This document shows, piece by piece, positions 8,641-41,500 of a stretch of DNA of 50,728 nucleotides (within the stretch, counting starts at the first letter, position 1; the number at the start of each line of letters is the position of its first letter). This DNA is from Ichthyobacteriaceae bacterium (GTDB taxonomy: Bacteria > Bacteroidota > Bacteroidia > Flavobacteriales > JADGDT01), in contig JADGDT010000011.1 of assembly GCA_016744755.1 (NCBI GenBank), positions 1 through 50,728 of the forward strand, in the 5' to 3' direction. A program made the position numbers and the translations under genes. The notes under the pieces are model-generated. The model worked only from the letters and a program-made list of their open reading frames with translations. It made no database searches and was not told the DNA's origin.

Positions 8641-9654
8641 TTATTTAATGGATTTACTCGATTCTCTTTCTATAAACTCTCCTTTAATTTTAATACTTCT
8701 ATTTTCAATAGTTACATTCTTAATCATATCAGTAATAATAGAAACCGATATTGCACATATTTCTGAAATTGATTGTTGGTAACAAGTAATTGAAGGAGTT
8801 AACAACTCAAAAATATCGGGGTTATCGTAACTTACAATTGCTACATCCTGTGGTATGCGAATATTATTTTTCTTTAAAATTCTTAAACCAGATGTTCCTA
8901 ATCTGTTTTGTGTAAAGAAAAAAGCATTCACCCCTTTGCTTATAGCTTTCAGAATTTGTTTTTCGAGATATAATTCGTAATTTTTTATGGGAACTTTTAT
9001 TATTGATTGAGTATTCGCATTTTTATCAAGTTTACTGTCAGAGAAACCATCAAGTCTATCTTGTAAATTAGATAGGTCTCGTTCAAAAGCAATTGATGAA
9101 ACTCGATTATATCCATTTTCAACCAAGCAATTTGTGAGCTTCTTACCTCCATAGAAACCGTCATCAACAACATAAGTTATGTTGGAATTTTCGAATTTTC
9201 TATCAACTAAAACAATTGGAACACCTTGTTTACTTTTTCCCTCTAAGTATTCTTGCGATCCTTCTACAGGTACAACTATTAATCCATCAACCTGACGACT
9301 TAGTAGAGTATCAACTGCTTTTATGAATTTAGAAAGATCTTCGTCACTTGAAGCAAACATTAGCTGTAATCCTAATTTGGATGCTTGGTTTTCTATCTCA
9401 CGAGCAAATTTTCCATAAAAAGGATTTGATATATCAGCTACAACTAAGCCTATAACTCCAGTTTTACCTGTACGTAAAGCTCTAGCAGTTGTATTGGCTT
9501 GATATCCCATACTCTCTGCTTTAGCTTTAACCTTCTTGGCCAACTCCTCGCTTACCCTATTCTCTTTCCATTTGTCCGAAAGTACAAATGAAACAAGAGG
9601 AACAGAGACTCCAAGTTCTTTAGCTATATCGCTTAATTTTACTTTTTTGGTCAT
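8641..9654 (-). CDS. LacI-family transcriptional regulator
   Basis: A 337-residue regulator. Residues 1-60 are a LacI helix-turn-helix and hinge: KLSDIAKELGVSVPLVSFVLS, the spacer, then NTTARALRTGKTGVIGLVV. Residues 62-330 form the periplasmic-binding-protein-like effector domain, with ADISNPFYGKFAREIE, DGLIVVP and VAIVSYDNPDIFELLTPSIT. It is first in the catabolic operon, 86 bp ahead of the kinase gene. The LacI-type palindrome in that gap is its probable target. The ligand is likely the imported sugar, its ketose or a phosphate of it; the sequence does not tell which. A second candidate site at 22363-22380 suggests it also acts on the distant surface-protein gene. Confidence 0.93.
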   Translation of the reverse strand: MTKKVKLSDIAKELGVSVPLVSFVLSDKWKENRVSEELAKKVKAKAESMGYQANTTARALRTGKTGVIGLVVADISNPFYGKFAREIENQASKLGLQLMFASSDEDLSKFIKAVDTLLSRQVDGLIVVPVEGSQEYLEGKSKQGVPIVLVDRKFENSNITYVVDDGFYGGKKLTNCLVENGYNRVSSIAFERDLSNLQDRLDGFSDSKLDKNANTQSIIKVPIKNYELYLEKQILKAISKGVNAFFFTQNRLGTSGLRILKKNNIRIPQDVAIVSYDNPDIFELLTPSITCYQQSISEICAISVSIITDMIKNVTIENRSIKIKGEFIERESSKSIK

Positions 9655-22497: not shown

Positions 22498-23658
22498 TTA
22501 TAACTGTTTAAACTTTATATACTCATACTCGGCCGACATTCTTTCGCCAAACAGACCTAGTTTACCATTTACATTAGCAACTGTAAGTGTTGAAACCAAT
22601 TCATCATTTACGTATGATTTAATTTCATCTCCATGTTTTTCAATACGTAATATTGTCCAATCAAAAGTATCGATACCATCTACTACAATGTCAGCTTCTA
22701 ACCAACCATTGATACCGTGAATACCAACATGGTTAGTTTTACTACCATTTAAATCATGTGCTCTAATTGCAAATGCAAATGCAGGATTAATACCATCTAA
22801 GTTTCCTCCAATAAAGAAACCAGTAGCTGGCCAAACATCTTCTGAAGTTTTAAATTTAACTTTTAATTCTACTTCAAAATCTCCCTGCAAGTCAACCTCA
22901 TTTTTATAAGCTCCATTGCCATTGGCCCAACCCCAATCGTTTTGCATCTTAAGTATACCTGAAACGTCATCAGTTTCCCATACGCAAGTACCAGCAGTTG
23001 TCCAATTGTTATCGAAATTTTCGAAATAATCTACACTAGCAATTACGGATATAGATATAGTATATTTTATTATATCGCCACGAGGTGTTGTAAGAGTATA
23101 AACAACAGGAACACGTAGATCCACTGCTTCGCCAATTGCAGGAGATATTGTTGAACCTTCTGAAATAACAATATTAGGTATAACAGATGAATAGTCATTT
23201 ATAGGATTTTCTTCTGGCTCAAATATTTTAACTATCGAATTATTGTTATAGTTTATATCAAATTGGTAATCTTCTATGGTAAAGGAAACCATACCTGCTA
23301 CATATAAATCTACATTATACTTTGTCTCTGATTCTGTACTTCTTGAAGTTATTTCATACAAAAAAGAACTACTAAAATCTTGGCTTATACCATTTTCAGG
23401 AACTAAAGTTGCTCCTCTTGAAAGTGTTATATCTGGTGTTACATCAGTAATATTAAAGTATGGAGGTAATATTCCTGTAATAGTTTTAGCGGAAGTGTCA
23501 ACCTTAGCAAAAAAATCTCCATCTACACTACTTGCAACGAAAGAAATAACTTCGGATTGAGATGATAATACCTCAGGAAACTCATTCTCGTCTAACTTAT
23601 CGCACGATGCAAAAAAAGCTACTACTATTATACTTGTTATTATTCTTTTTATTTTCAT
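22498..23658 (-). CDS. SusE/F-position surface lipoprotein with glycan-binding module
   Basis: A 386-residue lipoprotein when started at the ATG at 23658. An upstream frame extends to 23736, but only the later start gives a proper signal (MKIKRIITSIIVVAFFASC). Two tandem Ig-like domains resembling DUF5018 follow (about residues 30-125 and 125-205). The C-terminal 178 residues are one copy of the module found three times in the next protein (WPATGFFIGGNLDG, HVGIHGINGW, HGDEIKSYVN). It sits straight after susD, where SusE/SusF-type glycan-binding lipoproteins are normally found. It most likely holds the glycan at the outer membrane near SusCD. Confidence 0.8.
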   Translation of the reverse strand: MKIKRIITSIIVVAFFASCDKLDENEFPEVLSSQSEVISFVASSVDGDFFAKVDTSAKTITGILPPYFNITDVTPDITLSRGATLVPENGISQDFSSSFLYEITSRSTESETKYNVDLYVAGMVSFTIEDYQFDINYNNNSIVKIFEPEENPINDYSSVIPNIVISEGSTISPAIGEAVDLRVPVVYTLTTPRGDIIKYTISISVIASVDYFENFDNNWTTAGTCVWETDDVSGILKMQNDWGWANGNGAYKNEVDLQGDFEVELKVKFKTSEDVWPATGFFIGGNLDGINPAFAFAIRAHDLNGSKTNHVGIHGINGWLEADIVVDGIDTFDWTILRIEKHGDEIKSYVNDELVSTLTVANVNGKLGLFGERMSAEYEYIKFKQL

Positions 23659-23659
23659 A

Positions 23660-23738
23660 ATCAAATTATGTTTGAAGTTTGGAGTTTGTAGTTCGATGCT
23701 GAAACAACTCAACACCAAACAACAAACCTCAAACATTA
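23660..23738. repeat. intercistronic stem-loop built of 7-nt GTTTG words
   Basis: Nearly the whole gap between susD and the next start codon is an inverted repeat. Each arm is a row of GTTTGnn words (GTTTGAA, GTTTGGA, GTTTGTA on the left; GTTTGAG, GTTTGTT, GTTTGGT on the complement of the right). It shares its architecture, but not its sequence, with the elements at 3599, 4937 and 38451. Confidence 0.65.
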
Positions 23739-23739: not shown

Positions 23740-25560
23740 TTAATACCCAGGGTTTTGAACTAAATTTGGATTATACTGAAGTTCTCTAAGGCTTATTGGC
23801 CATAAGTAACTTCTATTTACATCGAAATATCTATCCTCAATTTTCACCTTTTGATAAAATTCAGTACCTAAAGATTCGTTTACATCAAGGCCATAAACTG
23901 GAGTATTTAGCTCTTCTCCTTTTTTCCAACGTCTTGCATCCCAAATTCTATGACCTTCGAATGCTAACTCTATTCTTCTTTCAGTTTGAATAATATCTCT
24001 TAATCCAATTTTATTGTTTGGTTTTCCAGGATTGTATGCATTTATCCAAGCATCATCAATAGATGGTATACCAGCTCTACTTCTAACAAGATCTAAATAA
24101 TATTTAGCATCGTGACCGAATTTATCTAATGTTCCAAAACCATATTCGTTTAATGCTTCTGCCATATTCAAATACAATTCAGCAACACGCATCTTTGGCC
24201 AAGGGTATTCTATAAAAATATTATCGGACGCTGTAAACATTGTTTGTGGGTGAACACCTTTTTGTACTAGATATCCACTTCGCGAATAGTTACTTCTATC
24301 TACACCATCATATCCGTCGTGTTCTTTGTATCTCATAAATAATTTTTGAATATCATCATTTATTAGATAATCTCCTCTGTCGAATCCTATACTTGAGTAA
24401 AACCTCGGTTCTCTATTTCTGTGTAATTTGGCTGTTTCATCGCCAGGAGCAACTTCTAATCTTTCAGAATAATCGAAAGTTGGATCTTCGTTAATTGGCA
24501 ATCCATTTTCTGTATAATAAAGTTCTACTTGACGCATAGTTGGAGCAATTCCTCCTGCTGATGTTACTACACCTCCGTCTATAACTCTAGGTGCTGCATG
24601 ACGTTGCCATCCCCAAAAATATTCTTGTCTGTGTCCCCAAATCAACTCGTTGTTCCAAGGTTCCACCATAGAATATCGGGTATTAGCTACTGCATCTGCT
24701 CCATGACCTCTGTACAAAGTTGCACCTATAAAATCAGCATCATCAATTGCATCTTCAAGAGCTTTTATTGATTTCATCCATTTTTCGTTGTCGTAATTTT
24801 GAGAAAAAAGTTCTACCCCATCTTTACCAGAATATCCTGCAAAATCTGTATTCCCGTTGAATAATGGACTTGCCGCATACAATAACACTCTTCCTTTTAC
24901 TGCAGAAACTACGGGTTTAGTAATTCTACCTATATCGGATTTTGATTGACCGTAAGGTAATAAAGCATAAGCTTCGTCGAATTTTGAAACGCAAAATGCT
25001 ATACTCTCATCGTAAGATGATCTGTAAGGGAAATATGCTTCCTCAGGTGCATCCAATGGAACTGTTCCTTTTACAATTATTGTTGGACCATATTGTCTTA
25101 CTAAACAAAAATGTAAATACCCTATAATAAATGTAGCTTCACCTTTCATCGCATCTTGTTCATCTTCAGAAAAACCAGGTGTTTTATCTATATTATCTAA
25201 AAAAGTATAAGCTTGGCGAATACCTTCGTAGTAGGATTGAGAATCGCCTCCTGGATTACCCCAAAAATCGAAGAAAGGAGCACCAGTGCTAATAGGTTGA
25301 GTAGTTAATTTATAAGCATCGTACCATGTCCAAGGAATAGCTACCTCATCGGTTCCCCAAAGTTGAGGAGACGTAAGATGATCGTTTACTTTTGGCATAA
25401 ATGAGTATAAAGAATATAAGAAATTCTTTGCCTCTGCTGGACGAGTAAAAGCATCGTCGATAGTTGCTGTATTATCAGGAACTATATCTAAGAAAGTACA
25501 AGACTGAACAGAAGATACTATTGCTATTGCAACTATAATTTTAAAAATTATTTTTTTCAT
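23740..25560 (-). CDS. susD: SusD/RagB-family nutrient-binding lipoprotein
   Basis: A 606-residue outer-membrane lipoprotein with a lipobox at SVQSC (Cys21). The N-terminal TPR-like part (FTRPAEAKNFLYSLYSFMPK...) and the C-terminal block (PWPKMRVAELYLNMAEALNEYG, the R-A-G-IP motif, QTERRIELAFEGHRIWDARRW and the ending YNPNLVQNPGY) are typical of SusD/RagB. The gene starts 12 bp after the susC stop codon, and the two proteins act as a lidded importer pair for oligosaccharides. Glycan specificity cannot be read from the sequence; the flanking GH172 and GH43 genes suggest an arabinofuranose-rich ligand. Confidence 0.95.
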   Translation of the reverse strand: MKKIIFKIIVAIAIVSSVQSCTFLDIVPDNTATIDDAFTRPAEAKNFLYSLYSFMPKVNDHLTSPQLWGTDEVAIPWTWYDAYKLTTQPISTGAPFFDFWGNPGGDSQSYYEGIRQAYTFLDNIDKTPGFSEDEQDAMKGEATFIIGYLHFCLVRQYGPTIIVKGTVPLDAPEEAYFPYRSSYDESIAFCVSKFDEAYALLPYGQSKSDIGRITKPVVSAVKGRVLLYAASPLFNGNTDFAGYSGKDGVELFSQNYDNEKWMKSIKALEDAIDDADFIGATLYRGHGADAVANTRYSMVEPWNNELIWGHRQEYFWGWQRHAAPRVIDGGVVTSAGGIAPTMRQVELYYTENGLPINEDPTFDYSERLEVAPGDETAKLHRNREPRFYSSIGFDRGDYLINDDIQKLFMRYKEHDGYDGVDRSNYSRSGYLVQKGVHPQTMFTASDNIFIEYPWPKMRVAELYLNMAEALNEYGFGTLDKFGHDAKYYLDLVRSRAGIPSIDDAWINAYNPGKPNNKIGLRDIIQTERRIELAFEGHRIWDARRWKKGEELNTPVYGLDVNESLGTEFYQKVKIEDRYFDVNRSYLWPISLRELQYNPNLVQNPGY

Positions 25561-25572: not shown

Positions 25573-28500
25573 TTATAGATTAAACTGAAGCCCTAAAGTC
25601 ACACTTTTCTGATTAGGATAACTCAACCCATTGTTACTTGCAATCTCAGGATCCCACAAATCGAACTTACTGAAAGTCATTAGGTTCTGACCCATTGCAT
25701 AAACACGTAAAAACTCACTTACTTGATAACCAAATTCTAGGTCTTTTAGTCTTAAGAAAGAACCATCTCTAAGCCACCAAGAAGAAGCTATATTATTATT
25801 AAAGCTGTACTCTTCAGTTAATCGTGGATATCCAGCATTTGGATTAGGATTTGACTCTGACCAATAATCATCAGCAATAAATGACTGTACATTTCTTTCG
25901 AACTCTGTTGTGAAAGGATGGAAATCTCCCATCATGAACGAAGTATGAGCTACACCTTGAAAGAAGAAAGAAAAATCTAATTTTTTATATCTTAATGATG
26001 CTCCAAAACCATATGTAATTTCTGGCACTACAGGATATCCCATAGGTACAAAATCATTTTCGTCTACAACTCCATCGTCGTTTACATTTAAGTATCGCAA
26101 ATCACCAACGGTATAGTTTCCAAATGTCTGTTCTGGATTTACATCAACTTCACCTTGACTATTAAAAATATTACCAGCTCTAAGTCCATATATTTGACCA
26201 ACTGGACGACCTACTTCTGTTCTGTTGGGATATTCATCAGCATAACCTGGAGCTTCGTCAATTGCCATAACTTTATTTTTAGAGAATGTAAATGTCCCCA
26301 TTGCCTGAATAATCAAATCAGATGTAATGGCTTTGTTGTAATTAACAGAAAGATCAATTCCTTTGTTTTCTACTTCTCCAATATTTGCATAAGGGTTTGC
26401 TTCGCCAATACCTATGAAAGATGGTATAACTCTACGTTGCATTAATATTCCCGTTCTGTATTCTTTAAAAACATCTACGGCTATAACAAGTCCTGACTTT
26501 AACGATAAGTCTAAACCAATATTGGCCTTTTCTCCTGTTTCCCATGTAACATCTTCGTTACCATAAGATCTAATATAAACACCATCTCGGTAATTCTTAA
26601 AGTCTTGACCGAAGAAATAACCTAAGCCTCCTTCTTGAAGGTTTACATCGGATAAGTAAGGAAATCTTCCATACCCAATTTGATCATTTCCTGTAAGTCC
26701 ATAAGAAGCACGTACTTTTAACATTGAAACACTATCACCAAAAATATCTTTGAAGTATTTTTCGTTAGAAATAGCGTATCCTACAGATATTGAGGGAAAA
26801 AAACCAAATCTATTTTCCTCAGCAAAGTTTTCACTTCCTGTATATCCCATATTAGTTTCTATCATATACTTATTGGCGTACATATAACTAAAACGAGCAG
26901 AAACACCTTGATTACGATATGGTAGAGAGGATAAAAAATCACCTGGATCATTTACTCTAAAGTCTTTTTGATTGTAAACCAAAAGAGCTTGAATATCATT
27001 ATCGCCAAATACTCTGTTATAATTTATTTGAGGCTGAAAAAATATTGAAGTATTTCCATCGTCGAAACTAGAATACTGCAAAGAAGTGTTACCTCCCTCA
27101 CCAATTAAAGCAACATCATACTCGTATTCATCGGGAGCAGGCTGAACAATAGAAGAAGGATCTACACGGTAATAGAAAGGATCGTACCAATGTACTGCGC
27201 CACTGTTTGACCAGCTTTTAACAGAAATCATTGCATCAACAGAAAGTCCTTCAATCCAAGGTATTTCTTGAGATAATTTAGCTAATGCTAAAACTGTGTT
27301 CGATTTAACTTCCGAATCACCACTTTGCAATTGAGCATAAGGGTTAGGAAATACACCAAAGAAACCTCCTGGTTTAGCTCCAAATCTTATATGATCATCA
27401 CCTTCTTCTGCAGGAAAAGTTGGAGGAAACATCACTGGATTTGCATACATCACCGAATTAAATAAGTCGTTTGATGAAGTACGAGGCCCTTTTTTTGTTT
27501 CAAAATTAGCATTTATTTTAACCTCTAGAAGTGTCGTTTTAGAAACATTAATAGATAAGTTATTTTGCATATTCAATCTATTAAAATCTAAATTATTGTC
27601 ATTCCCTTCTGGAGCTCTAATCAAGCCACTATCGTTAGTGTAAGACACAGAAGAAAAATATCTAACTTTCTCACTACCTCCTCTAATATTAACGTTTGCA
27701 TATTGTTTAAAAGAATATTGTTTGAATAACTTATCCATCCAATCTACATTAGGAAATAAATATGGGTCTAAACCTTTTTGAGTACCATCAATTTGTTGTT
27801 GACTATACTTTGGCGATGCATTTGGATTACTATTATGCACAGCTTCGTTAGCCATATTCATGTAGGTAACAGCATCAGTAAATTGAGGTAAAATAGTTGG
27901 TGTACTTACAGTACTTTCTATTCTTGCACTAATAATTGGCTTGTCGGAAACAACACCATTTTTAGTTGTAATAAGAATTACTCCATTTGCACCTCTTGCT
28001 CCATAAAGAGCTGTAGAAGATGCATCTTTTAGAACTGTGAAATTCTCAATAATGGCAGGATCTAATGAGTTTAGATCTCCACCTGCGTGAATTTCAACTC
28101 CATCAAGAAAAACTAGAGGTGTATTGTTTGCTCCAAAAGTAGAAATACCACGTATCCAAAAATCAGAACTATTACTTCCTGGTTCTCCACTACGCTGAAC
28201 AGAAACAACTCCTGCCATACGACCTGCAAAACTATTTGTTAACTGTGTTGACGATGTTTTTAGTTCTCCTGGCTTAATGGCCGTAACAGAACCTGTAACA
28301 CTTATTTTTTTCTGAGTACCAAATCCTACAACAACAGCCTCTTCTAGCATTTGAGTGTCAGGGTCAAGAATTACTCTCAACACGTTAGCTCCTTCATACT
28401 TTACCGTTTTAGTAGTATAACCCATAAACGAAAAGGATAAAACAGCATCATCGCTATTAATATTAATAACAAAATTTCCATCAAAATCGGTTGATACTCC

Positions 28501-28740
28501 ATTTGATGTTCCTACAACTACAACAGAAACTCCAGGTAATCCTAGTCCATCATCAGAGGCAATTACCCTACCTTTTATTTCTATAGGAAACTGTTGATCA
28601 GAATTCTCGAAAAGTGTTGTTAGTCCATTTTTCTCTTTTTCAGCATAATTAACTGATTCACTAGCAAAAGTATTGCTACTTATCAGAAACATTAATGCTA
28701 AGAAGAAAAACCTACACTTTAATGTAAATTTGTATTTCAT
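25573..28740 (-). CDS. susC: SusC/RagA TonB-dependent transporter
   Basis: A 1055-residue outer-membrane receptor. It has a signal peptide (about 1-27) and a carboxypeptidase-regulatory-like domain (about 53-120, IKGRVIASDDGLGLPGVSVVVVG). The SusC hallmark EEAVVVGFGTQKK follows, then the plug (VTGSVTAIKPGELK...PLVFLDGVE...STALYGARGANGVILITTK) and a long beta-barrel ending KSVTLGLQFNL. No N-terminal anti-sigma-interacting extension is present, which fits control by the hybrid two-component regulator rather than by an ECF sigma factor. It is preceded by a GH172 gene with a 79-bp gap that holds a stem-loop at 28771-28807. Confidence 0.96.
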   Translation of the reverse strand: MKYKFTLKCRFFFLALMFLISSNTFASESVNYAEKEKNGLTTLFENSDQQFPIEIKGRVIASDDGLGLPGVSVVVVGTSNGVSTDFDGNFVININSDDAVLSFSFMGYTTKTVKYEGANVLRVILDPDTQMLEEAVVVGFGTQKKISVTGSVTAIKPGELKTSSTQLTNSFAGRMAGVVSVQRSGEPGSNSSDFWIRGISTFGANNTPLVFLDGVEIHAGGDLNSLDPAIIENFTVLKDASSTALYGARGANGVILITTKNGVVSDKPIISARIESTVSTPTILPQFTDAVTYMNMANEAVHNSNPNASPKYSQQQIDGTQKGLDPYLFPNVDWMDKLFKQYSFKQYANVNIRGGSEKVRYFSSVSYTNDSGLIRAPEGNDNNLDFNRLNMQNNLSINVSKTTLLEVKINANFETKKGPRTSSNDLFNSVMYANPVMFPPTFPAEEGDDHIRFGAKPGGFFGVFPNPYAQLQSGDSEVKSNTVLALAKLSQEIPWIEGLSVDAMISVKSWSNSGAVHWYDPFYYRVDPSSIVQPAPDEYEYDVALIGEGGNTSLQYSSFDDGNTSIFFQPQINYNRVFGDNDIQALLVYNQKDFRVNDPGDFLSSLPYRNQGVSARFSYMYANKYMIETNMGYTGSENFAEENRFGFFPSISVGYAISNEKYFKDIFGDSVSMLKVRASYGLTGNDQIGYGRFPYLSDVNLQEGGLGYFFGQDFKNYRDGVYIRSYGNEDVTWETGEKANIGLDLSLKSGLVIAVDVFKEYRTGILMQRRVIPSFIGIGEANPYANIGEVENKGIDLSVNYNKAITSDLIIQAMGTFTFSKNKVMAIDEAPGYADEYPNRTEVGRPVGQIYGLRAGNIFNSQGEVDVNPEQTFGNYTVGDLRYLNVNDDGVVDENDFVPMGYPVVPEITYGFGASLRYKKLDFSFFFQGVAHTSFMMGDFHPFTTEFERNVQSFIADDYWSESNPNPNAGYPRLTEEYSFNNNIASSWWLRDGSFLRLKDLEFGYQVSEFLRVYAMGQNLMTFSKFDLWDPEIASNNGLSYPNQKSVTLGLQFNL

Positions 28741-28819: not shown

Positions 28820-30022
28820 TTATTTTCTTTCTTCAAAAGGAACAACTTCATCTAGCACTCCATTTGGAGTAGTCAAATAGAAGTAGCTTGTAGCACAAAC
28901 ATCATCCTGACGGTAATAGTTTGTCCAAGTACCATCTTTATAATTATCATCATCGAAACTAGCATCGCCATCCATAAAATTTAACTGTAATTTGTTATCG
29001 TCGATATGACAAACTGGTAATGCGGGTTTTCCTTCTGATATAAATTTCTTTATTTCTCCTTTTTGTGTACCTCCCATTTGCTGGATAGTGACTTTTATTT
29101 CATCTTGAAAATAAATAGGGTCGATAATATGAAAACGGTAAAAAGCATATTCTCCTTTAGCATCGTCAACAATTGAGCTTCCCATATGTTTGGTATGGTA
29201 CACTCCTTGAGCCCAACCAGAGCCAATATAATCCTCGGTTCCCGATCCTATTAATGATGGATTTTTATCATCACCATCCATATAAACTTTAACTTCGCCT
29301 TCGCCCCACCATCCAGTGTATTTGTGAATATTAATTATACCAATATTACATCCTAAAAATCTACCTCTAGCTTCTATTTTTGGTGATATCTCAAAATCTT
29401 CACCTAAAGTAGTTTCTTTATCTCTATGCCAATAAGCATGAAAGTACATTGCCTCTTTATCTAATTTTTTCACCTCAGTGAAATTAATATCATAAAAAAT
29501 TCTATGCGATTTTTCTTTCGATTCGTTTGTAATAACAATCTTAGCCGATTTACGGTAAGGCATTTGTACATAACTCATAAACGAGCGCCCTTCTGGACTA
29601 GAAAATAAATCGTTATCGAAAGCCACCATACGACCAAATACAACGTTGAAAAAATCTTCAACGGGAGCAGATACAGCAGGTTTATCACTACCATCCCAAA
29701 ACATTTCAATTTTCATTGATCGGTGCTCGCTTTCAATATTATATAAATCGTCGAATGTCATCCACATACGATTTATTATTCCACTTCCACTTACATCAAG
29801 TAGAGTTACCGATTCGCCAGGTTGCAAAACATGGAAAGGATATCCTTTGGCTCCTTTACCCACTTTTCCACCTTCTCCTTTTTCAGCCGATAGGTTTTCG
29901 AAACTAGACCATCGAGTCTGAACATCTTTGGGCATGTTGTACACTTCTGTCGTTTGTGCATAACCTATTCCTGAGAAAAGTGTTGCAAATATTACAATAA
30001 TGCTTAGTCTTAATTTATTCAT
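28820..30022 (-). CDS. GH172 (DUF2961) hydrolase, compact form
   Basis: A 400-residue secreted protein with a signal peptide ending at YAQ (residue 23). It has the two jelly-roll halves of DUF2961, now family GH172: GSGIINRMWMTF and MKIEMFWDGS...VSAPVEDFFNVVFG in the first; VKVYMDGD, GSGTEDYIGSGW and FYRFHIIDPIYF in the second. Glu263 in GTEDY is the likely nucleophile; Glu291 is a candidate acid/base. Known members of the family include a difructose dianhydride I synthase/hydrolase (alpha-D-fructofuranosidase type) and exo-alpha-D-arabinofuranosidases. With FucI and AraB in the locus, D-arabinofuranosidase is my preferred reading. The gene is 13 bp after the GH62-like gene. Confidence 0.85.
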   Translation of the reverse strand: MNKLRLSIIVIFATLFSGIGYAQTTEVYNMPKDVQTRWSSFENLSAEKGEGGKVGKGAKGYPFHVLQPGESVTLLDVSGSGIINRMWMTFDDLYNIESEHRSMKIEMFWDGSDKPAVSAPVEDFFNVVFGRMVAFDNDLFSSPEGRSFMSYVQMPYRKSAKIVITNESKEKSHRIFYDINFTEVKKLDKEAMYFHAYWHRDKETTLGEDFEISPKIEARGRFLGCNIGIINIHKYTGWWGEGEVKVYMDGDDKNPSLIGSGTEDYIGSGWAQGVYHTKHMGSSIVDDAKGEYAFYRFHIIDPIYFQDEIKVTIQQMGGTQKGEIKKFISEGKPALPVCHIDDNKLQLNFMDGDASFDDDNYKDGTWTNYYRQDDVCATSYFYLTTPNGVLDEVVPFEERK

Positions 30023-30035: not shown

Positions 30036-31016
30036 TTATTGTTTTGTAATTAACGACAAACCCCATTTTAGCTTATCGCCAAGTTTTGTGTGATTAGTAT
30101 TAGATAGATAAAAAATTTTAAAATCTGTAATTATTTTTTTTTGATTATAGCCTTCAAGTAGTACTCTAGGATTCCTCATTATTAACCCATTTGGAACACT
30201 TCCGTTTGTATTAACAATATTGTTTACATCAACTTTAAACCTGTTGTCTTCCTTCCACTCGCCATCTAAAGATGAACTTGTAAATGTTGTAAATCCATTA
30301 TTACTATCTGTAATAGCAATGAATAATTCATCTACTCTAGAGTAGTTAATATTTAAGGAACCAGTAAAATTGTATTGTTTATTAGTTGAAAATCTAACTT
30401 TTTCGGGAGTTGAAAACTTTTCTGGAAAACTATTAATCAGAGATTTAGTTTTAAATAATTCTCCTTGGTCATTAGTATAAAATATATGAACATACTCTTC
30501 GTTGGCAATAGTGTAATATTGATCAATGTTATTGATCATATTTACTTTTTTCCATACAGACCATTTAGATGTATCATTTATGTTTGTACTAGTAGAATAT
30601 ACTAATGATTTATCCTGTTTAGAACTGGCAAATAAATACCATATTTTTTGAGATTCTGAATAGAATACTTCTGGATTTATCTTTTCATTATCCTGACTTG
30701 GGTTTAATAAAAACCTCTCAGAATAATTTAGCTTATTAAGTGATGATGCCGATGTGTATTTTATAACACTTTGCATGGAAGAAGCACAAGTATAAAAAAG
30801 ATGGTAGTTTCCTTCGAAATTAATTATTGACGCACACTCTATAGATTCATCTGTATTTTTAGCTTCAAAAATACCCTCAGAGTTAATCCAATTATTTGTG
30901 ATTAATTCTGATGTTTCATTAATTACTACCTCATCACTTTCTTTGCTTTTTTGAGAGCAAGATAAAGTGATGAAGACAATAATTATTAAATATTTTAGGT
31001 TTGTTTTAAGCATCAA
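30036..31016 (-). CDS. GH62-like lipoprotein with degenerate active site
   Basis: A 326-residue lipoprotein (Cys20 in TLSC). The layout follows GH62 alpha-L-arabinofuranosidases: EGNYHLFYT, VFYSESQKIWYLFASS, HIFYTNDQGELFKTK...NSFPEKFS, TSSSLDGEWKE and the C-terminal LKWGLSLITKQ. By eye, the three acidic positions of the family appear lost. The K-D-P that carries the base reads E-C-A near residue 61; the C-D-D before the IFYTNDQG strand reads A-N-E near 172; the F-E-A that carries the acid reads F-T-G near 218. If so, it is a pseudoenzyme, perhaps a glycan-binding protein. It has its own upstream gap with the candidate motif at 31079-31106. The GH62 assignment is by pattern; a divergent GH43 propeller is the alternative. 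Confidence 0.55.
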   Translation of the reverse strand: MMLKTNLKYLIIIVFITLSCSQKSKESDEVVINETSELITNNWINSEGIFEAKNTDESIECASIINFEGNYHLFYTCASSMQSVIKYTSASSLNKLNYSERFLLNPSQDNEKINPEVFYSESQKIWYLFASSKQDKSLVYSTSTNINDTSKWSVWKKVNMINNIDQYYTIANEEYVHIFYTNDQGELFKTKSLINSFPEKFSTPEKVRFSTNKQYNFTGSLNINYSRVDELFIAITDSNNGFTTFTSSSLDGEWKEDNRFKVDVNNIVNTNGSVPNGLIMRNPRVLLEGYNQKKIITDFKIFYLSNTNHTKLGDKLKWGLSLITKQ

Positions 31017-31078
31017 AATCTCTTTTATTTAATTTGATACTACAATGATAAATTAAAATTTTGATTTTGATGTGGTAA

Positions 31079-31106
31079 CCATGTTTCAGAAAACAGGAAC
31101 ATTGTT
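31079..31106 (-). promoter_or_regulatory. candidate regulator site, copy 2 (AACAAT-N12-TGAAACATGG)
   Basis: On the minus strand AACAAT is followed after exactly 12 bases by TGAAACATGG, 63 bp upstream of the GH62-like gene. The same two blocks with the same spacing occur at 34244-34271. Binding by the hybrid two-component regulator encoded next door is inferred. Confidence 0.6.
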
Positions 31107-31146
31107 ACATCGTAGCACAAATTCATATTTTACTGACACTACAAGC

Positions 31147-34100
31147 CTATTTTTTTATTATATATGTAGAAAGTACACCATCTTTTGTTGCAATATTTAG
31201 GATATATGTACCACTTTGCAGTTCTGATATATCAATTTTGCTTTGATTACCATCTATGTGTTTTATTACTCTACCCGATAAATCAACAATCTTTATACTC
31301 ACGATATCAAGATCTTCAATATCCACATTAATATATCTTGAAGTTGGGTTTGGATAGACCGAAATTATGTTAGATAAATACTCTTGGTTTGATAGATTTT
31401 GTTCATCGGTTGAATATATCCAGTAATGAAATTCCGACCATTTGTATTCTCCCACCGAAGCCACAAACTTCAAAGTGATTTGATTCTTATTTTGAGTAAA
31501 AGCTGAAGGAATACCAAAAAATTCTTCTCTCCATTGTTTGTCTGAATTTGATCCATTTGTAAACCATTTACCTACAAAAACATTATCAACATAAACATCA
31601 GCATTCTGATCGCTAATAGAATAATCGAACATTCGCTTAATTTTAAGTGGTTTATTTGCATCTATAGATACTGTAAATTCTGATGTTCCATCAATATAAT
31701 TTCCAGATTCGGTAATTGATTCTGTATCATTATCGCCTTCGAATTGATAAATAACTGATAGTTGAGTGTTTATTATTCCATCTACTTTATAATTGTGATT
31801 AGTTTCTGAAGAACTATTTCCAATATTTACTTCATCAGTCAACGTAAAACTTGTTTCGTTATTTAAATAATAAAAAGCCAAACTCTGATAGTTTGCCGAA
31901 ATATCGTTTATAGGTCCGTGCTCAATTCCGAAAACACCTTCTTTTTCGAAATAAATAGGATCGCTCAAATGAAAACGATACAGCGTTCTGTCAACACCGT
32001 CTTGCACTGTAAAACCGTGGGTTGCCAAATGAAATGGACCTCTGTTGAAATACCATGCTCCGTTGAAATAATCCTCGGTGCCAGTACCGTAAGAAACTGG
32101 TGTACGGCATTCGTCAACATAAAATCTTTCGTCTCCTTCGAGCCAAAGTTCGTTTGTTGCACCTCTACCCTCTAGCACTACTCCTATGTATTTACCTCTA
32201 CCATTTGCGGTAAGTATGTTATAATCTAAATCTTCGGTAGTTGGATATTCTTTGTTGTATTGAGTTTTTAGATATCCTATTTTGGTGAATTCATGTTCCA
32301 ATACTTTGTAGTTTACTTCAATTTCTACACCTGTTAGATCGCGTACGCTATTGTTTACAAGTTTTACCTCCATAGAATTTTTGAAAGGCATAGGTAAATA
32401 ACAATACATAGTATTTGTTCCTTTTAAAATGCCTATTGGCAGAGATTGAAACGCCATATTTTCTATTGTACCTGATCCAAAGAAAAGACCTATTGGAGCA
32501 TCTACAGAAGGTATAGTTTCACCATCGAAAAATATTTGTAAACTAACATCTTGCAACAACTTATCAGTCTTGAATTTCTCATTTCCATAAGTATATTCTC
32601 CAAAACCTTCCCAAAGTTGATTGTTGATTGTGTAACTGTGAATGTTCTCATCTTCAAGTTTTTTCACATCTAATTCGTCGGTAAGTTTACCGTCAGACAA
32701 CATCCAATAATAAAACTCATTCCAATCTATATCCGAACTAATAAATTCAATTTTAATGGTGATATCATCTTTTCCATCAGCAATTAAATCTTTAGAAATA
32801 ACAAACTCTTTGTCTGCCCATCTGTTTTCTGAATCTAATCCTGAACTAAACCAAACACCTGCATCTACACCATCAACATAAACTCTAGCTTTTTGATTTC
32901 CTATACCGAAATCGGTTCTTCTAATTAATTTATATTCACTAGCATCAGGAGTAATATTCATTATAAACTGGCTATATCCTTTATGTGCTCTACCATCGTC
33001 TTTCAAAGTTGGTATGTATGCCGAACTTAAAGATCCGGACCAATTTTTGGGTACAATCGAATAATTATGGGCATTCTCACTAACTGTATTCGCTACATCT
33101 ATTTCGTCGGTAAGCACATCGTCGCAGTGTATCCAATAATAAAATTCGTTCCAATCTATCATTGAATCTACAAACTTAACTTTAATGGTAATATTTGTCT
33201 TGCCAGCGGTAAATGAAGTTGGTATCTCGAAATCAACATCTCTCCAACGATAAACACCGTCGCTACCAGGCGTAAGCCATTCGCCAACAAAGCTACCATC
33301 AACATAAACCTCTGCTTTTTGATCGGCAACCCAATAGTCCATACGTCTTGTAAGAACAACTTTTGTGGCTGTTGATTTTATGTTCATTCTAAACTGAGAA
33401 TATCCATCTGTGGCATTACCCGAATCGGTTAAAGAATTAGATCCTATCTCGTTGAACTCCAATTCAGGAATAGTTAAAAACAGACTTGAAGCGCTTTGGT
33501 TTTGAGAATTTATTGTTATTGCTGATACTGTATTTCCCTCGCCTACATCGATAGTATTATTTGCTGTTGTATAGTTTTGTTCACCACGAGGATCGTCTCC
33601 CTTTTTATCGAAAATATTATATGTGTCTGTTAAATCTTCATTTCCTTTCCAAGTTTTTATACTCTCATTATTTGTATCGTACAATTGATAATTAATGTTG
33701 TAAAAATGATTTCCAGTTGTGGTAACCATTACCTCTTTCTCGAAAGGGAAAGGCATGTAGCTAAGAAAACCTCCACTTGTAACTTCATCATTAACAACCA
33801 AAGGCGATAAAAAAGGGGCTTTAGTACCAGAGAAAAAGCTCCCCACAGTTTCGTCGATTGAAGCAGTAATTTCTCCATCGAAATAAATTTTGATTTTATC
33901 TGAATGATCGTAACCTGTAAGCCATATTCTATTAATAAATCCTTTGCCATAAGCATGCACCATTATATTTTCGCCATTGTAAGTTCCAGGGAAATTACCT
34001 TTTTCAAATCCATCTGCATTTCCGCCTGTTGGATCGTGACTACTTTGATGGATACTTAGAATATCGTTTCTAAGAAGTGCGATATCATCAAAATTATTTA

Positions 34101-34173
34101 TTTGATTAAGCCCTGTTTCTTGTGAAAAAACACTTGTTGAAATTAATACAAATAGAAATATTATTTTCTTCAT
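31147..34173 (-). CDS. multimodular GH172 (DUF2961) protein with T9SS domain
   Basis: A 1008-residue secreted protein. After a signal peptide (1-18) comes a DUF2961 N-terminal jelly-roll (about 35-165: HDPTGGNADGFEKGNF, FINRIWLTGYDHSDKIKIYFDGE). Two related modules follow (about 215-360 and 375-505), each with R-R-x-D, Q-K-A-x-VYVDG and WNEFYYW. A further jelly-roll half (545-630) and the catalytic part follow, with SYGTGTEDYFNGAWYFNRG (Glu700 the likely nucleophile) and YRFHLSDPIYFEKEGVFGIEHG. A third module copy (about 805-920) and a sorting domain (935-1008) end it. The gene is divergent from the regulator gene and leads the PUL-core transcript. It probably acts at the cell surface on the polymer, with the compact GH172 acting on imported pieces. 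Confidence 0.85.
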   Translation of the reverse strand: MKKIIFLFVLISTSVFSQETGLNQINNFDDIALLRNDILSIHQSSHDPTGGNADGFEKGNFPGTYNGENIMVHAYGKGFINRIWLTGYDHSDKIKIYFDGEITASIDETVGSFFSGTKAPFLSPLVVNDEVTSGGFLSYMPFPFEKEVMVTTTGNHFYNINYQLYDTNNESIKTWKGNEDLTDTYNIFDKKGDDPRGEQNYTTANNTIDVGEGNTVSAITINSQNQSASSLFLTIPELEFNEIGSNSLTDSGNATDGYSQFRMNIKSTATKVVLTRRMDYWVADQKAEVYVDGSFVGEWLTPGSDGVYRWRDVDFEIPTSFTAGKTNITIKVKFVDSMIDWNEFYYWIHCDDVLTDEIDVANTVSENAHNYSIVPKNWSGSLSSAYIPTLKDDGRAHKGYSQFIMNITPDASEYKLIRRTDFGIGNQKARVYVDGVDAGVWFSSGLDSENRWADKEFVISKDLIADGKDDITIKIEFISSDIDWNEFYYWMLSDGKLTDELDVKKLEDENIHSYTINNQLWEGFGEYTYGNEKFKTDKLLQDVSLQIFFDGETIPSVDAPIGLFFGSGTIENMAFQSLPIGILKGTNTMYCYLPMPFKNSMEVKLVNNSVRDLTGVEIEVNYKVLEHEFTKIGYLKTQYNKEYPTTEDLDYNILTANGRGKYIGVVLEGRGATNELWLEGDERFYVDECRTPVSYGTGTEDYFNGAWYFNRGPFHLATHGFTVQDGVDRTLYRFHLSDPIYFEKEGVFGIEHGPINDISANYQSLAFYYLNNETSFTLTDEVNIGNSSSETNHNYKVDGIINTQLSVIYQFEGDNDTESITESGNYIDGTSEFTVSIDANKPLKIKRMFDYSISDQNADVYVDNVFVGKWFTNGSNSDKQWREEFFGIPSAFTQNKNQITLKFVASVGEYKWSEFHYWIYSTDEQNLSNQEYLSNIISVYPNPTSRYINVDIEDLDIVSIKIVDLSGRVIKHIDGNQSKIDISELQSGTYILNIATKDGVLSTYIIKK

Positions 34174-34372
34174 CTATGAATGAATTATTTATTGATTGAT
34201 AATTTTTACAATAATAAGTGAAATATACTTATTTAAGTATAAGCCATGTTTCACATATTAGTAGTATTGTTCCAAATGGTAATAAATATTAAAATTTCGA
34301 TAAAATAACCTGATACATTTTTTTAATTAAATTGAAATAAATTACTTTAGTCGAAAATAAAATACGTGGATA
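34174..34372. promoter_or_regulatory. divergent promoter region
   Basis: This 199-bp gap separates the PUL-core transcript (minus) from the regulator gene (plus). It contains the candidate regulator site at 34244-34271. On the minus strand TATATTTC at about 34224-34231 is close to the Bacteroidota -7 element TAnnTTTG. On the plus strand TACTTTAG at 34343-34350 is a weaker match. Confidence 0.5.
34244..34271 (-). promoter_or_regulatory. candidate regulator site, copy 1 (AACAAT-N12-TGAAACATGG)
   Basis: On the minus strand AACAAT, 12 unconserved bases, then TGAAACATGG, 71 bp upstream of the large GH172 gene. Blocks and spacing are identical to those at 31079-31106, while the spacer and flanks are unrelated, which argues for selection on the two blocks. 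Confidence 0.65.
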
Positions 34373-37300
34373 ATGTATAAAAGAATAGTATTATTTTTAA
34401 TGTTTTTTGTAGCCACTGCATCCGCAGTATTGTCTCAAAACTCATATCACTTCAAGCACCTAACATCTATAGAAGGGCTTTCGAATAATACTGTGCACAA
34501 CATTGTGCAAGATCATGATGGTTATGTGTGGCTGGCAACCATTGAGGGGCTAAATAGATTTAATGGAACATCGATAAAATCGTATTACAGCAACGAAAAA
34601 GTCGGGGATATTTCGAGTAATATTGTTACGCGATTAATTGTAAACTCTTCGGGAGAATTATTTATTGGAACAATAAATGGTCTTGATATATACAATAGAA
34701 ATACCGATAGCTTTGAACCTATATTATTTGAAAACAACAGGTTAAATAAGATTATGAAAATTGTAGAAATGTCTAATAAAGACATAATAATTGCTACACT
34801 AGATTACACTTATAAACTTACACCAAGTAAAATAATCACTAAAATAAATGAAACATTCTATCGCGATATAAGCGAATATCAAGATGATAAAATTTGGGGA
34901 ATTACTGGCGATGAAATACAATTGATTGATAGTAATGGCGAAATTATTAAAAGGTATAACAACACTACACATTTTGGCAGTATAGATTTTTCGTCGCAAA
35001 ATGTAGAATGTGTATTTAGAGATTCGAGGGGTATAATTTGGTTGGGTACAAAACGTAATGGACTTGCATATTACGATGCTCTTATCGATAAGTTTTACAA
35101 TTTACGTATTGACGAAGGAGTTAATGAAATAGAAGATAATTTTATTAGAATAATAAGCGAAGGTTATAATAATGATTTGTGGATAGGTACGGAATCGGGT
35201 ATTTACACTTACAATGTAGCAAATCAGAAATTTAAGTTTCACACTCAAAATCTAAATCCCCTAGAATCTGGATTGAACGATAAAGCAATTTACGATATAT
35301 ATAAAGGTAGTGATAACACAATGTGGATAGGTACTTTTTTTGGCGGAGTAAATTATACTAATCCTAATACAAAAATCTTTTCGAATATTTATGCCGATGG
35401 AGGAGATAAGAACCTATCGGGGAAGGCGGTGAGTAATATTATTGAAGCTAAAGATGGCAAAATATGGATAGCTACAGAAGATGGCGGAATAAGTATTTTG
35501 GATAGAAACAATAATAAATTTGAATACCTAAAACACTCTACAAAAACAAATTCACTTACTTCTAATAATATTCACGCTTTAGAAGAAGATAGTGAAGGTA
35601 ATGTATGGATAGGAACATTTTTGGGAGGAATAAATAAGTATAATTCAAATACAAAACAAATAAGCTCAGTAAAGGTAAATCAGTTAGATAACAAAAATTT
35701 GCTAAGTGTTTTTTCTATTTTCAACGATTCTAAAAACAGAATTTGGGCAGGATCGTTATTTGGCCTTTTCAGAAATGATGGTGAAGTATTCAATCCTATT
35801 TATTCAGATTTTTTCACAAATAAATTTATAAGATTCATCAACGAAGATAAAGATGGAAACATCTGGATTTGCACAAATTTTAGTGGTATTTATAAAATAG
35901 ATTCCAACGAAAACATAAGCAATTACAGCAACAAGAATAGAGAAGATATTACTAGTGAGTTTTTTACATATTCATTTATAGATTCAAAACAAAATATTTG
36001 GTTCGGAACGCAAGGGGGAGGTCTCGTTAATTACAACATTTCGTTAGACAAATTTACTACCTATACCACTAACAATGGTTTACCAAACAATACTGTTCAT
36101 ACAGTTACCGAAGATGAGGACGGAAATATTTGGTTCTCTACAAATAAAGGGATAGTACGATTCAATGTTAAAACAGATGTATTTAAAGGGTTTAACGAAA
36201 ATGATGGTTTAATTGGAAATCAATTCAACTACAATTCATGTTTGAATACAAAAGATAATACCTTGTTTTTTGGAGCTGTTAATGGATTATCATATTTTAA
36301 TTCTGAAAACATAAGGACAATAGAGCAAGAAACAAATCTGATTTTTACAGATTTCAAACTTTTCAATAAGACAATATCAGCAACCGATGATGGTATTTTA
36401 ACTTCGCATATAAACTCGCAAGATGAAGTGAATTTGAATTACGACGACAATGTTTTCACTATTGACTATGTTGGGATAAATTATCAATCGCCAAAAAAAA
36501 TAAAGTATGCCTTCATGTTAGATGGATTCGAAAGCGAATGGAATTATGTTGGTGATAAAACTTCTGCTACCTATACAAACTTGTCATCGGGGAATTACGT
36601 TTTCAAGATAAAAACAACTGATGGTAATGGAATATGGTCGGATAATATTAGAACAATTAATATTAGTGTAGAACCTCCTTTCTGGCTTTCTCCTTGGGGA
36701 TATTTATTGTATTTCGTAATTGGGGCGGTATTTACATTTCTGTTTTATAAAGTCATGCAAATTCGTAATAGCGAGAAGATGAAAATTCAGATTGCTAATA
36801 TTGAAAAACAAAATACTATAGAAATAAATAAGCACAGACTTAATTTCTTCACATATATAAGTCATGAGTTTAAAACACCTTTGTCAATAGTTTTAGCAAC
36901 CATAGAAGAGCTAATTCAAGAAGAGAGTAATTCGAATAAAATGAATAAGTATGGTGATGTTATTAAGAAAAACGCTCTGAAATTACTTTTTCTAATTAAT
37001 CAGTTAATGGATTTTAGGAAGATAGAAACCGATCATGCTTCAATAAAACTTAATAACGGAGACATAATAAAATTCCTTTACAGTATAGTAGATTCATTTA
37101 AACCTCTATTCAAAAAGAAAGCAATTACCGTAAATATCACTTCTGATGTAGATAGTTATGAAACATATTTCGATGCCGAAAAAACTGAAAAAATAGTGTC
37201 AAACATTATTAGTAATTCATACAAAGCACTCGCTGAAGATAGTTATAATGGCGAAATTAATATTGATATTCATATTAAAACATTGAACGAAATTGGTTTA

Positions 37301-38440
37301 TTAAGCAATAAGCTATCATCGGAAAGCATTATTGATATTAGTATAAGCGACAACGGACCAGGAATGACAAAAGAGAAATTATCTAAACTTTTCGATCCAT
37401 TTTATTCGGAAAATAAAAACAGTAATTTCAGTAGCGGAATAGGATTAGCATTAGTAAGTAGTTTGTTGAAACTTTTGGATGGAAAAATAACAGCCACTAG
37501 TAAAATAGATCACGGAACTGAATTCGAAATTACTATACCATTGATTATAAATCCGCCAAAAGAATATATTTTGTCATCGAGTTTTGTAAAAGAGAAATCG
37601 GGTGTAAATATTGAAACAACAATTTTAGATTTGGAGTATGCGAACTCTACAGATGATGAATTGGATACAATAGAAAACACTATGAATCATGATATTCTTA
37701 TTGTTGAAGATAATAAAGACTTGTCTAATTTTTTATCCAACCATTTTTCTAAAACCTATAAAACTAATGTAGCATTTGATGGTAAGGAAGCAATAGCTAA
37801 AATTAACAAATCTCATCCTGATATTATTTTAAGTGATGTGATGATGCCAAATATGGATGGGAATGAAATGTGCGATATTCTGAAAGGTTCCATTGAAACT
37901 AGTCATATACCTATTATACTGTTAACAGCAAATTCGGGTATAGAATCAAAAATAGAAGGGCTATCGAAGGGAGCAGATGCTTATATGAAAAAGCCTTTCA
38001 ACTTACAAGAACTCGACCTACAAGTCCGAAATATTTTAAAATCAATAGAAGATAATAAGAAGAAATTTTCGCAATTTGAATCTTTAGATGATTCAATTGA
38101 TCACTTGCAAAACAAGGAAGCAAAATTTATTGGAGATCTAACAAAGATAATACTCGACAATTTGGAAGATAATAATTTCAGCATAAACGATCTGTGCGAA
38201 AAATTGTTTATCAGTAGAACACAGCTTCATAGAAAATTAAAAAAGATAACAGGTTTAAGCACATCCGAATATATTAGAAATGTAAAGTTAAATGAAGGTA
38301 AAAAGCTATTATTAACCCATAAATATACTATTTCAGAAGTTGCCAATAAAGTAGGATATACCGATTCTGCCTATTTTAGTAAGTCGTTTAAAAAGGTGTT
38401 TAATGAGTTGCCTTCCTCTTATATGAAGGATACATTATAA
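34373..38440 (+). CDS. hybrid two-component system regulator (HTCS)
   Basis: A 1355-residue one-protein signalling system. A signal peptide is followed by two beta-propellers of Reg_prop repeats (D-x-x-G-x-I/V-W-I/L-G-T) to about residue 660 and a Y_Y_Y domain to about 765. A transmembrane helix lies near 773-795. Next come a HisKA domain with His831 in SHEFKTPLS, an ATPase domain (SDNGPGMTKEKL, SGIGLALV) and a receiver with Asp1155 in LSDVMMPNMDG. An AraC-type helix-turn-helix ends it (about 1250-1355, ISEVANKVGYTDSAYFSKSFKKVF). Such proteins sense oligosaccharides in the periplasm and activate the neighbouring PUL. It is the only complete plus-strand PUL gene and lies between the two large minus-strand blocks, which it probably controls. 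Confidence 0.96.
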   Translation: MYKRIVLFLMFFVATASAVLSQNSYHFKHLTSIEGLSNNTVHNIVQDHDGYVWLATIEGLNRFNGTSIKSYYSNEKVGDISSNIVTRLIVNSSGELFIGTINGLDIYNRNTDSFEPILFENNRLNKIMKIVEMSNKDIIIATLDYTYKLTPSKIITKINETFYRDISEYQDDKIWGITGDEIQLIDSNGEIIKRYNNTTHFGSIDFSSQNVECVFRDSRGIIWLGTKRNGLAYYDALIDKFYNLRIDEGVNEIEDNFIRIISEGYNNDLWIGTESGIYTYNVANQKFKFHTQNLNPLESGLNDKAIYDIYKGSDNTMWIGTFFGGVNYTNPNTKIFSNIYADGGDKNLSGKAVSNIIEAKDGKIWIATEDGGISILDRNNNKFEYLKHSTKTNSLTSNNIHALEEDSEGNVWIGTFLGGINKYNSNTKQISSVKVNQLDNKNLLSVFSIFNDSKNRIWAGSLFGLFRNDGEVFNPIYSDFFTNKFIRFINEDKDGNIWICTNFSGIYKIDSNENISNYSNKNREDITSEFFTYSFIDSKQNIWFGTQGGGLVNYNISLDKFTTYTTNNGLPNNTVHTVTEDEDGNIWFSTNKGIVRFNVKTDVFKGFNENDGLIGNQFNYNSCLNTKDNTLFFGAVNGLSYFNSENIRTIEQETNLIFTDFKLFNKTISATDDGILTSHINSQDEVNLNYDDNVFTIDYVGINYQSPKKIKYAFMLDGFESEWNYVGDKTSATYTNLSSGNYVFKIKTTDGNGIWSDNIRTINISVEPPFWLSPWGYLLYFVIGAVFTFLFYKVMQIRNSEKMKIQIANIEKQNTIEINKHRLNFFTYISHEFKTPLSIVLATIEELIQEESNSNKMNKYGDVIKKNALKLLFLINQLMDFRKIETDHASIKLNNGDIIKFLYSIVDSFKPLFKKKAITVNITSDVDSYETYFDAEKTEKIVSNIISNSYKALAEDSYNGEINIDIHIKTLNEIGLLSNKLSSESIIDISISDNGPGMTKEKLSKLFDPFYSENKNSNFSSGIGLALVSSLLKLLDGKITATSKIDHGTEFEITIPLIINPPKEYILSSSFVKEKSGVNIETTILDLEYANSTDDELDTIENTMNHDILIVEDNKDLSNFLSNHFSKTYKTNVAFDGKEAIAKINKSHPDIILSDVMMPNMDGNEMCDILKGSIETSHIPIILLTANSGIESKIEGLSKGADAYMKKPFNLQELDLQVRNILKSIEDNKKKFSQFESLDDSIDHLQNKEAKFIGDLTKIILDNLEDNNFSINDLCEKLFISRTQLHRKLKKITGLSTSEYIRNVKLNEGKKLLLTHKYTISEVANKVGYTDSAYFSKSFKKVFNELPSSYMKDTL

Positions 38441-38554: not shown

Positions 38555-41500
38555 TTATTTTTTAACAATTTTGTAGCTAAGTATATTATCGCCTAAAATT
38601 ATATTTAAAATATAAACACCTGATTCTAGGTGCCCTAAATACACTTGATCTATAGTCTTTTTTTGTTCTAGAATCTTCCCATTAGTATCAATTATTCTCA
38701 CATCAACTTCTTTCTTTAATCCTTTTAAGTACAAGTAATCTTCTATAGGGTTTGGATAAATAGACAACTTCCCTTTTAGGAAATCTTCTATGCCAGTAGT
38801 TGCATCATTTACCACTCCAGGAGTTCCGTAAGTACTTAGGCAATCCCAATTTTCGGGCAATGAATTATCTAAATCTGGAGATTTTAATTCTAAGGTAGGA
38901 CCTTGCCCATTTGCACATGTTGGCCATGGCTCAGCTGTTCCGTAATTCACTTCATCTTGAAGTTCTAATTCAGAATTAAATATTCTTACAGCATCGCCAC
39001 TACTAGACAATCCAAAGTCAAAATCGCCAATGAAATTTTTAACATCGGGAAATGCACTTGTAAAATCCACTGAACTTTTTGTTATTACTAAATAAGAATT
39101 AGCATCGATAGATGTACCATCAGGAATTGTAAAGATATTAGCATCATTACTATCTTTAAACTTCCAATTAGAAATATCTAAATATGTATCATTTGGATTG
39201 TATAATTCTATCCAATCTCCCGCATCAACTACATCTCCCGACTTGTAGTTAATTTCGTTAATTACTATAGGTTTAATCTCTGTGGACGATTCTACAAAAT
39301 GTGCTTTTACCGACATTACTGAAGCCATACTCAACTCTATTTCAGCATTTGTAGATTCACTACTACCACTCCAATGAGAAAACTCAAAACCTGGTTCGGC
39401 TATTGCTTTTAAAGCGATTGGAATATCCTGAAAATAGTCTCCTCCCCAATAGTTTAACTCTATTATAAGATTATTATTTACTTCAACAAACCCTCTATTA
39501 ACCTCATCATTCTGTAGTGTTAACCTCTTGGTGCTAGGTATGTTAAATTTATTTCGAATATGGTACTTAGCATAAGTAGATCTATTGTTTGAAAACGTTT
39601 TCATATTTGCTATATTCTGAGGGTTGTAAGTAGCCCCCCATCTATTGTAATGAGCAGTGTTTTCGGAATAAATAACATCAGATGCTTGTTGAATGTGAGC
39701 ATTAACATTATTTGCTAAAAACCTTGTATTCATCTCATCAGCAGAACGATTAATAAACTTATTACGAAAAGTTTTATTTTCAATTAATTTTCTAAACACT
39801 AAAGTTGACCAAGCTGGGTTTGGCCAATCAGGACCATTTGGTTCTAACGCAAAACTCAATGCATCGTGTCTGTAATCGTTAACATCCCAAATGCCAAATC
39901 CAAAATCAGTATCGTACAATATCCATCGCCATTTTCCTCCTTCCGATTTCCAGTATTTTATGTTATTACCAGGCCAATCGGTATTATTGAAATATATTTG
40001 TGTTGATTGATATAGTATAAAATTATCTATATCAACTCTTTCAGCTACATAGTTGTAATTAGCTTCATTTACAAGACTATTATTTTTGATAAATTCTATC
40101 AATTCCAAATACTCTTGATTATCTCCTTCTACAATTTGCCCTTCTAGTTCTAATAAATCAAGAGCATCAGCATCAACTCCTTTTTTACTAGCTAGAAAGT
40201 GTTCGTTTACTTTTTCTCTCAAGTTGTAAATCCCCCAATACTCACCATTTATATAAACTACTGTTGATCTGTGGTCTTGAAACTCAATATCAGCTCCATC
40301 CATCAAACTTGTTAATGATGCATCTCTAACCATAGTATTTAACCAATCATTCCCAGAATTTCTAAGTACCAAAGCTTGATATTTATCGTAAGGTAAATCA
40401 GGAAAAATAGGATAATCAATTTCGCTAGTTCCGTATTGTCCTCTAGCAAATATTGATAATGATCGTTGCTCATTTGCTCTACTCCATCCTCCAAATACTT
40501 TTATTCCAGCGTTGAATTCTGTTCCTAAGCTACCATCATCTTCATAAAGCGAAAACTGAACTGGTCTTTCCCTATCTTCCCAGAAATTGGCTCCCCAATA
40601 GGGAACATTAGGATCGTAGCTATCTCCTTTTACATAAATACCATAATCATTATCAAATAAATTATAAGGATCGGTTACAAGTGTTACAACTGGTAAATTA
40701 TGCGAAGCATTGAATAAAAAAGTTTTACTGTTGGTAAGAGATGAAATATAATTTGCCTTAAACAATCGCGCTCTTATAACTGTAGTAGCATTTACTACAA
40801 TAGGGTTTTGATACAAGGCAGATGACTCCGTTGGTACTGTAGCATCTGTAGTATATCTAATTTCTTCACCCTCGGTATTACCAGAAATAGTTAAAGAAAA
40901 TGAATTGATAATTTTGCCTCCGTTATTAGAAAAAACAACATCTTTTTTTATTGTTCCTAAAAATTCTTGACTATCATTTACCTTACCCGGTGTAGGAGTT
41001 GTGTAATAAACCAAGTTTGCGTCTTTGGTAGAAACCCCAATGGAAGAATCAGAAAACAAACCTTCAATAAATAATTCATCAATAATATTTCCTGTATCAT
41101 CACTTAAAGTAAGTGTTTCTGATTTTGAAGAAATTTTGAAATTAGTATGAAGTTTGCTATTTGATAATTCTAATATTGAAGGAGGAGTAATACCATCAGT
41201 AACATCTGTAGAAAAAATTGCTGATAGAAATGGAATCAAAGTCATATCAGACGAAGTATTACTGATGTTGTGTAATTGTATACTCAACACATTATTTCCA
41301 TTATTTAATAAACTCTGAGGGTTATCTATAACAAATCTATCGGGCTTACCGCCAGAATACATTTTAGCTTCATGGTCTACAATAGTACCGGAATTGAATA
41401 CAGGTGGAACACCATTAATATTAGCTCTAGCAACTTCTTGCCCATTAATATATGCTACAAAACCATCGTCGTAATCTATATCTAATATCAATTTTGTGAT

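Follow-up and report, generated by a model that had tools for sequence, protein, structure and literature searches.

The two-part motif that stands ahead of two genes in this PUL is very probably (we put it at about 0.87) the operator of the adjacent HTCS, which would activate a GH172 gene and a GH62-like/GH172/SusC/SusD operon of a probable D-arabinan locus. The window is the whole stretch of 50,728 nucleotides that was analysed (Ichthyobacteriaceae bacterium, GCA_016744755.1, contig JADGDT010000011.1, positions 1-50,728; its own genome is labelled G000). Both blocks of the motif are copies of one 15-bp half-site, TGwAACAnnrnTaCt, set as a direct repeat with a pitch of 21 bp. The regulator and the two sites are as follows.

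34373..38440, plus strand: HTCS regulator, 1355 aa (Pfam; sole full-length match in G000; ortholog alignment)
34239..34274, minus strand: operator A (predicted), TGGAACAATACTACT-aatatg-TGAAACATGGCTTAT; exact motif copy, 21-bp direct repeat, same site in the congener leader
34274-34260 and 34253-34239, minus strand: half-sites of operator A, TGGAACAATACTACT and TGAAACATGGCTTAT
31074..31109, minus strand: operator B (predicted), TGTAACAATGTTCCT-gttttc-TGAAACATGGTTACC; exact motif copy, 21-bp direct repeat
31109-31095 and 31088-31074, minus strand: half-sites of operator B, TGTAACAATGTTCCT and TGAAACATGGTTACC; 10/15 matches between the halves

Operator A lies between the GH172 gene (31147-34173) and the divergent HTCS gene, ahead of the former, while operator B precedes the GH62-like/GH172/SusC/SusD operon. 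The HTCS carries, in one chain, a Reg_prop propeller, Y_Y_Y, HisKA (His831), HATPase, receiver (Asp1155) and AraC-type HTH_18 domains (Pfam), which is the domain set of a complete HTCS regulator, periplasmic propeller included. It was the only full-length HTCS matched in G000, and His831 and Asp1155 are invariant in its congener ortholog.

Structure and occurrence of the repeat

Genome-wide tests were carried out as pattern searches. The window contains two exact copies of AACAAT-N12-TGAAACATGG, both on the minus strand (31079-31106 and 34244-34271), and the identity of the two blocks and of the 12-base spacer length at these places, on which the original prediction was built, was thus recovered exactly. 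No further exact copy was found in the rest of the 3.64-Mb genome. The nearest other place in G000, with one mismatch (C107:41019), lies inside coding sequence at a DHODH/oxidoreductase junction; as a match within chance expectation in coding sequence, it was rejected as a further site. Elsewhere in the genome (G000:C14:24099-32193), the stretch AACAAAAAACACnCCCTCCAGAACATTATA was seen three times, 3.3-4.8 kb apart, which suggests tandem gene copies.

The gap from the end of the site to the start codon measures 66-71 bp for the GH62-like and GH172 genes, in agreement with the 60-75 bp first proposed for these minus-strand PUL-core genes. Only 2 of the 21 leaders in the window carry the site; it was found in none of the others, including those of the GH43, fucose isomerase and other window operons.

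The half-site arrangement emerged from the two window sites taken together with one from a congener. At an offset of 21, 30 of 45 positions match when summed over these three sites, against at most 20 of 45 for any other offset from 8 to 45. This offset is prominent in the sum and also high in each site; within single leaders other repeats have a higher raw identity, and what distinguishes the 21-bp repeat is that three sites share its offset. Half-site positions 2, 4-7 and 12 are identical in all six half-sites. Since one half-site is present twice at this distance and accounts for both blocks, part of what had been taken for free spacer belongs to the motif. The earlier statement that spacer and flanks differ stands for the flanks, whereas the spacer is constrained: in both halves, AACA is followed by a fixed T and mostly C-T. 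The upstream half-site of operator B (31095-31109) is, in addition, itself nearly palindromic (GTAACAATGTTCC).

It had also been argued that sixteen matched positions at fixed spacing were unlikely by chance, and this did not survive a wider count. The window DNA has 33% GC, and in 35 of 60 dinucleotide-preserving shuffles of all 21 leaders some pair shared 16 or more positions, counted in one or two blocks; for this single leader pair, the same was reached in 8 of 1500 dinucleotide shuffles. By itself, the sixteen-match coincidence has no significance after look-elsewhere. Since shuffled leaders often reach 16 matches, other evidence was needed, and the significance of the motif rests on the orthologous leader and on the repeat structure.

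Conservation and pitch at other HTCS loci

The searchable genomes gave one close HTCS ortholog, L063:9774-13847 (56% identity over the whole length, with similar recognition regions), and conservation of the site means this one congener comparison. The original prediction had named absence of the motif from orthologous leaders as grounds against it; in this congener, the divergent leader of the ortholog HTCS carries the site at L063:9636-9671 (TGTAACAATAGTACT-tttagt-AGTAACATAAATACT). Using a matrix trained on the two window sites only, it scored 19.4 bits, while none of 3000 shuffles of that leader exceeded 13.6; the 15.5-kb contig scored at most 4.9 on its opposite strand. Behind the site comes a gene for a redoxin-domain protein and then a GH172 gene, so the site has been kept despite a different first gene. 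Together with the 21-bp direct-repeat form, this leader supports the proposal that the two-part site is read by the adjacent HTCS, as far as sequence comparison can speak to it. The same congener contig contains a second HTCS (L063:79-1599; G002:C75:1-1584), truncated at the contig end, whose kinase-DBD part shares 56% identity with the window HTCS, and two close HTCS paralogs thus flank one GH172 cluster there.

A relaxed half-site pattern has three zero-mismatch places in three congeneric genomes, namely the two window sites and that of L063; as the pattern was derived from these same sites, the count shows specificity and not discovery. Exact 28-mer searches in homologous loci placed the congener site only among the 4-mismatch matches, a poor rank that arises because conservation does not follow the two blocks. 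The site was absent from the 36 kb read at the second GH172 locus of the congener (C5), the GH62-like protein gave no matches as a probe for orthologous PULs, and no relatives were found among viral contigs. The HTCSs of the GTDB loci are only 23-42% identical to that of the window, which is too distant for the same half-site, and they were used for pitch statistics.

For this survey, 15-bp direct repeats with at least 12/15 matches were counted in 418 intergenic regions from about 119 loci drawn by HTCS similarity. A pitch of 21 bp was found in 25 repeats (1.7 expected from shuffles) and one of 22 bp in 14 (0.7 in shuffles), with 0-8 repeats at each of the other pitches; a few of the loci are distant matches to kinases or receivers and not HTCS genes, and these would weaken the 21-22-bp signal, not produce it. 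The peak at 21 bp agrees with the direct repeats of Ravcheev et al. (PMC3878776) and with the EMSA results for BT4124/BT4663 (PMC11253607). A tandem spacing of 21-22 bp is thereby shown to be a rule for HTCS loci from varied Bacteroidota, and the promoter position may be set by it. Clear repeats of this pitch stand before large genes at L132 4130-4541, L135 9730-9988, L143 14746-15054, L170 11531-11823 and others, and such repeats, present at many HTCS loci, can be taken directly as predicted operators. A resemblance to the window half-site is seen in those of L170 and L177 (GTTACAATAnTCa).

Promoter geometry and alternative readings

Each window operator is followed by a box resembling the Bacteroidota -7 element.

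34209..34216, minus strand: -7-like box TATTATTG, 22 nt after operator A
31043..31050, minus strand: -7-like box TATCATTG, 23 nt after operator B

Including the congener, the TAnnATTG box lies 22, 23 and 22 nt past the second half-site (sites A, B and congener, respectively). The boxes are one base off the literature consensus for the Bacteroidota -7 element, TAnnTTTG. A common box distance in the three leaders was reached in 0 of 4000 shuffles, with the TAnnATTG pattern having been chosen after the boxes were seen. No -33 TTTG is present at the expected position in the three leaders, where the second half-site occupies the place. At other HTCS loci, a perfect TAnnTTTG lies 18-27 nt after 7 of 11 repeats with a 21/22-bp pitch, compared with 0 of 7 and 1 of 4 where the repeat had another pitch; these are small numbers, from a set that includes a few congeneric loci and is mostly independent of the window.

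The fixed spacing of the motif to the start codons and to the -7-like box could also be expected if a sigma factor (a sigma-A variant or ECF) itself recognized the motif as part of the promoter. We regard this as very improbable, given that the tandem repeat ahead of the box, at 36 bp, exceeds the length of a -33 element and is absent from other promoters of the window or genome. Binding by another regulator is an unlikely but more serious alternative, as a LacI-type regulator is encoded in the window (8641-9654), and a Crp-like global regulator or a stand-alone AraC protein might also be considered. The upstream half-site of operator B, being partly palindromic and having a weak opposite-strand score, could be read in this way. 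However, the site pair is a direct repeat and not a palindrome: it lacks the inverted-repeat form of LacI/Crp operators, with an opposite-strand score that is weak at site B (18.0 vs 35.2) and below threshold at site A and the congener site. In the congener the site moreover accompanies the HTCS gene, and the ORFs scanned on that contig included no LacI gene, while the fucose-isomerase/kinase leaders beside the window's own LacI gene are without it. A global regulator would have more sites, and no further ones were found in the genome.

A chance resemblance in AT-rich DNA, or the remnant of a duplicated leader, would account for the sixteen shared positions, which shuffled leaders reach so readily (35/60). 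Against this, the orthologous leader carries a site that none of 3000 shuffles equalled, and the pitch of the site equals the HTCS pitch found independently. The flanks and downstream genes of the two sites differ, which argues against leader duplication. We hence give this explanation very little credence.

For control by the adjacent HTCS, we infer the following course of events. The periplasmic propeller would sense an oligosaccharide, and phosphorylation would pass within the HTCS from His831 to Asp1155. Two AraC-type domains would lie side by side on the DNA, each with two helix-turn-helices on one half-site of the direct repeat, the half-sites being two helical turns (21 bp) apart. The downstream half-site ends 22-23 bp before the -7-like box, in the usual -33 place, and from this position the bound HTCS dimer would be expected to bring in RNA polymerase, switching on both the GH172 gene and the GH62-like/GH172/SusC/SusD operon.

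We tentatively suggest, at somewhat less than even odds, that HTCS promoters of Bacteroidota share one geometry, in which a 21-22-bp tandem operator has its downstream half-site in place of the -33 box and the -7 box follows about 22-25 bp after, and that the window may offer the first regulator/operator pair proposed for a D-arabinan-type (GH172 and fucose isomerase) locus. If the shared geometry is true, operators and promoters of uncharacterized HTCSs could be read from sequence alone.

Predicted regulon and known systems

The genes that would be controlled from the two sites are listed below.

31147..34173, minus strand: DUF2961/GH172 protein with Por secretion tail, predicted target of operator A (Pfam)
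30036..31016, minus strand: GH62-like protein, first gene of predicted operon B (Pfam; start probably the ATG at 31013)
28820..30022, minus strand: DUF2961/GH172 protein, second gene of operon B (Pfam)
25573..28740, minus strand: SusC-like TonB-dependent transporter, operon B (Pfam)
23740..25560, minus strand: SusD-like protein, operon B
22498..23736, minus strand: probable last gene of operon B (weak DUF5018/lectin-like matches; 199-bp gap after)

The predicted regulon would consist of the GH172 gene (site A) and the operon 31016-22498 (site B). Window operons without the site may answer to the LacI-type protein or to other signals. An L-fucose isomerase, an FGGY kinase and the LacI-type regulator are encoded at 5038-9654, downstream of the GH172/SusCD genes, and a CotH-kinase/LTD protein with a Por secretion tail (38555-42010) lies within the PUL, convergent to the HTCS.

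With two GH172 proteins, a fucose isomerase and an FGGY kinase, this is probably a D-arabinan/D-arabinose utilization locus, to judge from its gene make-up. That make-up matches PUL42 of Dysgonomonas gadei, a D-arabinan locus (PMC10115798) that likewise combines GH172 (DUF2961) and fucose isomerase in one PUL, and D-arabinan is therefore a reasonable guess for the ligand. In contrast to PUL42, DUF4185/GH183 was not matched among the window proteins scanned. Neither a regulator nor an HTCS came up in a search of the main text of the PUL42 paper. The window locus may alternatively act on fructan-type substrates, since GH172 includes difructose dianhydride enzymes (PMC8605356). The locus enzymes point to D-arabinan, the unusual glycan of mycobacterial walls.

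The closest known parallels to the site itself come from Bacteroides. Ravcheev et al. (2013) predicted direct repeats with a mean pitch of 21 bp for 16 Bacteroides HTCSs (PMC3878776), and the operators of B. thetaiotaomicron described there resemble those of the window in being direct repeats of 12-16-bp half-sites at that mean pitch, in leaders of susCD and enzyme operons beside the HTCS gene. The window half-site TGwAACAnnrnTaCt, in contrast, belongs to this regulator, the host genus is in another family than those studied there, and a -7-like box at a fixed 22-23 bp is described here for the window sites. BT4124 and BT4663, whose purified receiver-DBD parts bind the bt4114 and bt4662 PUL promoters by EMSA (PMC11253607), share with the window HTCS the order HK-REC-AraC DBD and the type of target promoter. 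They are other regulators with other ligands, and their binding was seen by EMSA whereas the window operator is predicted from sequence. The window site likewise appears as a half-site pair at about 21 bp in PUL leaders beside an HTCS gene. It is a new example of an already known type of bacterial control site, and provides a precise predicted operator and regulon for an HTCS outside Bacteroides.
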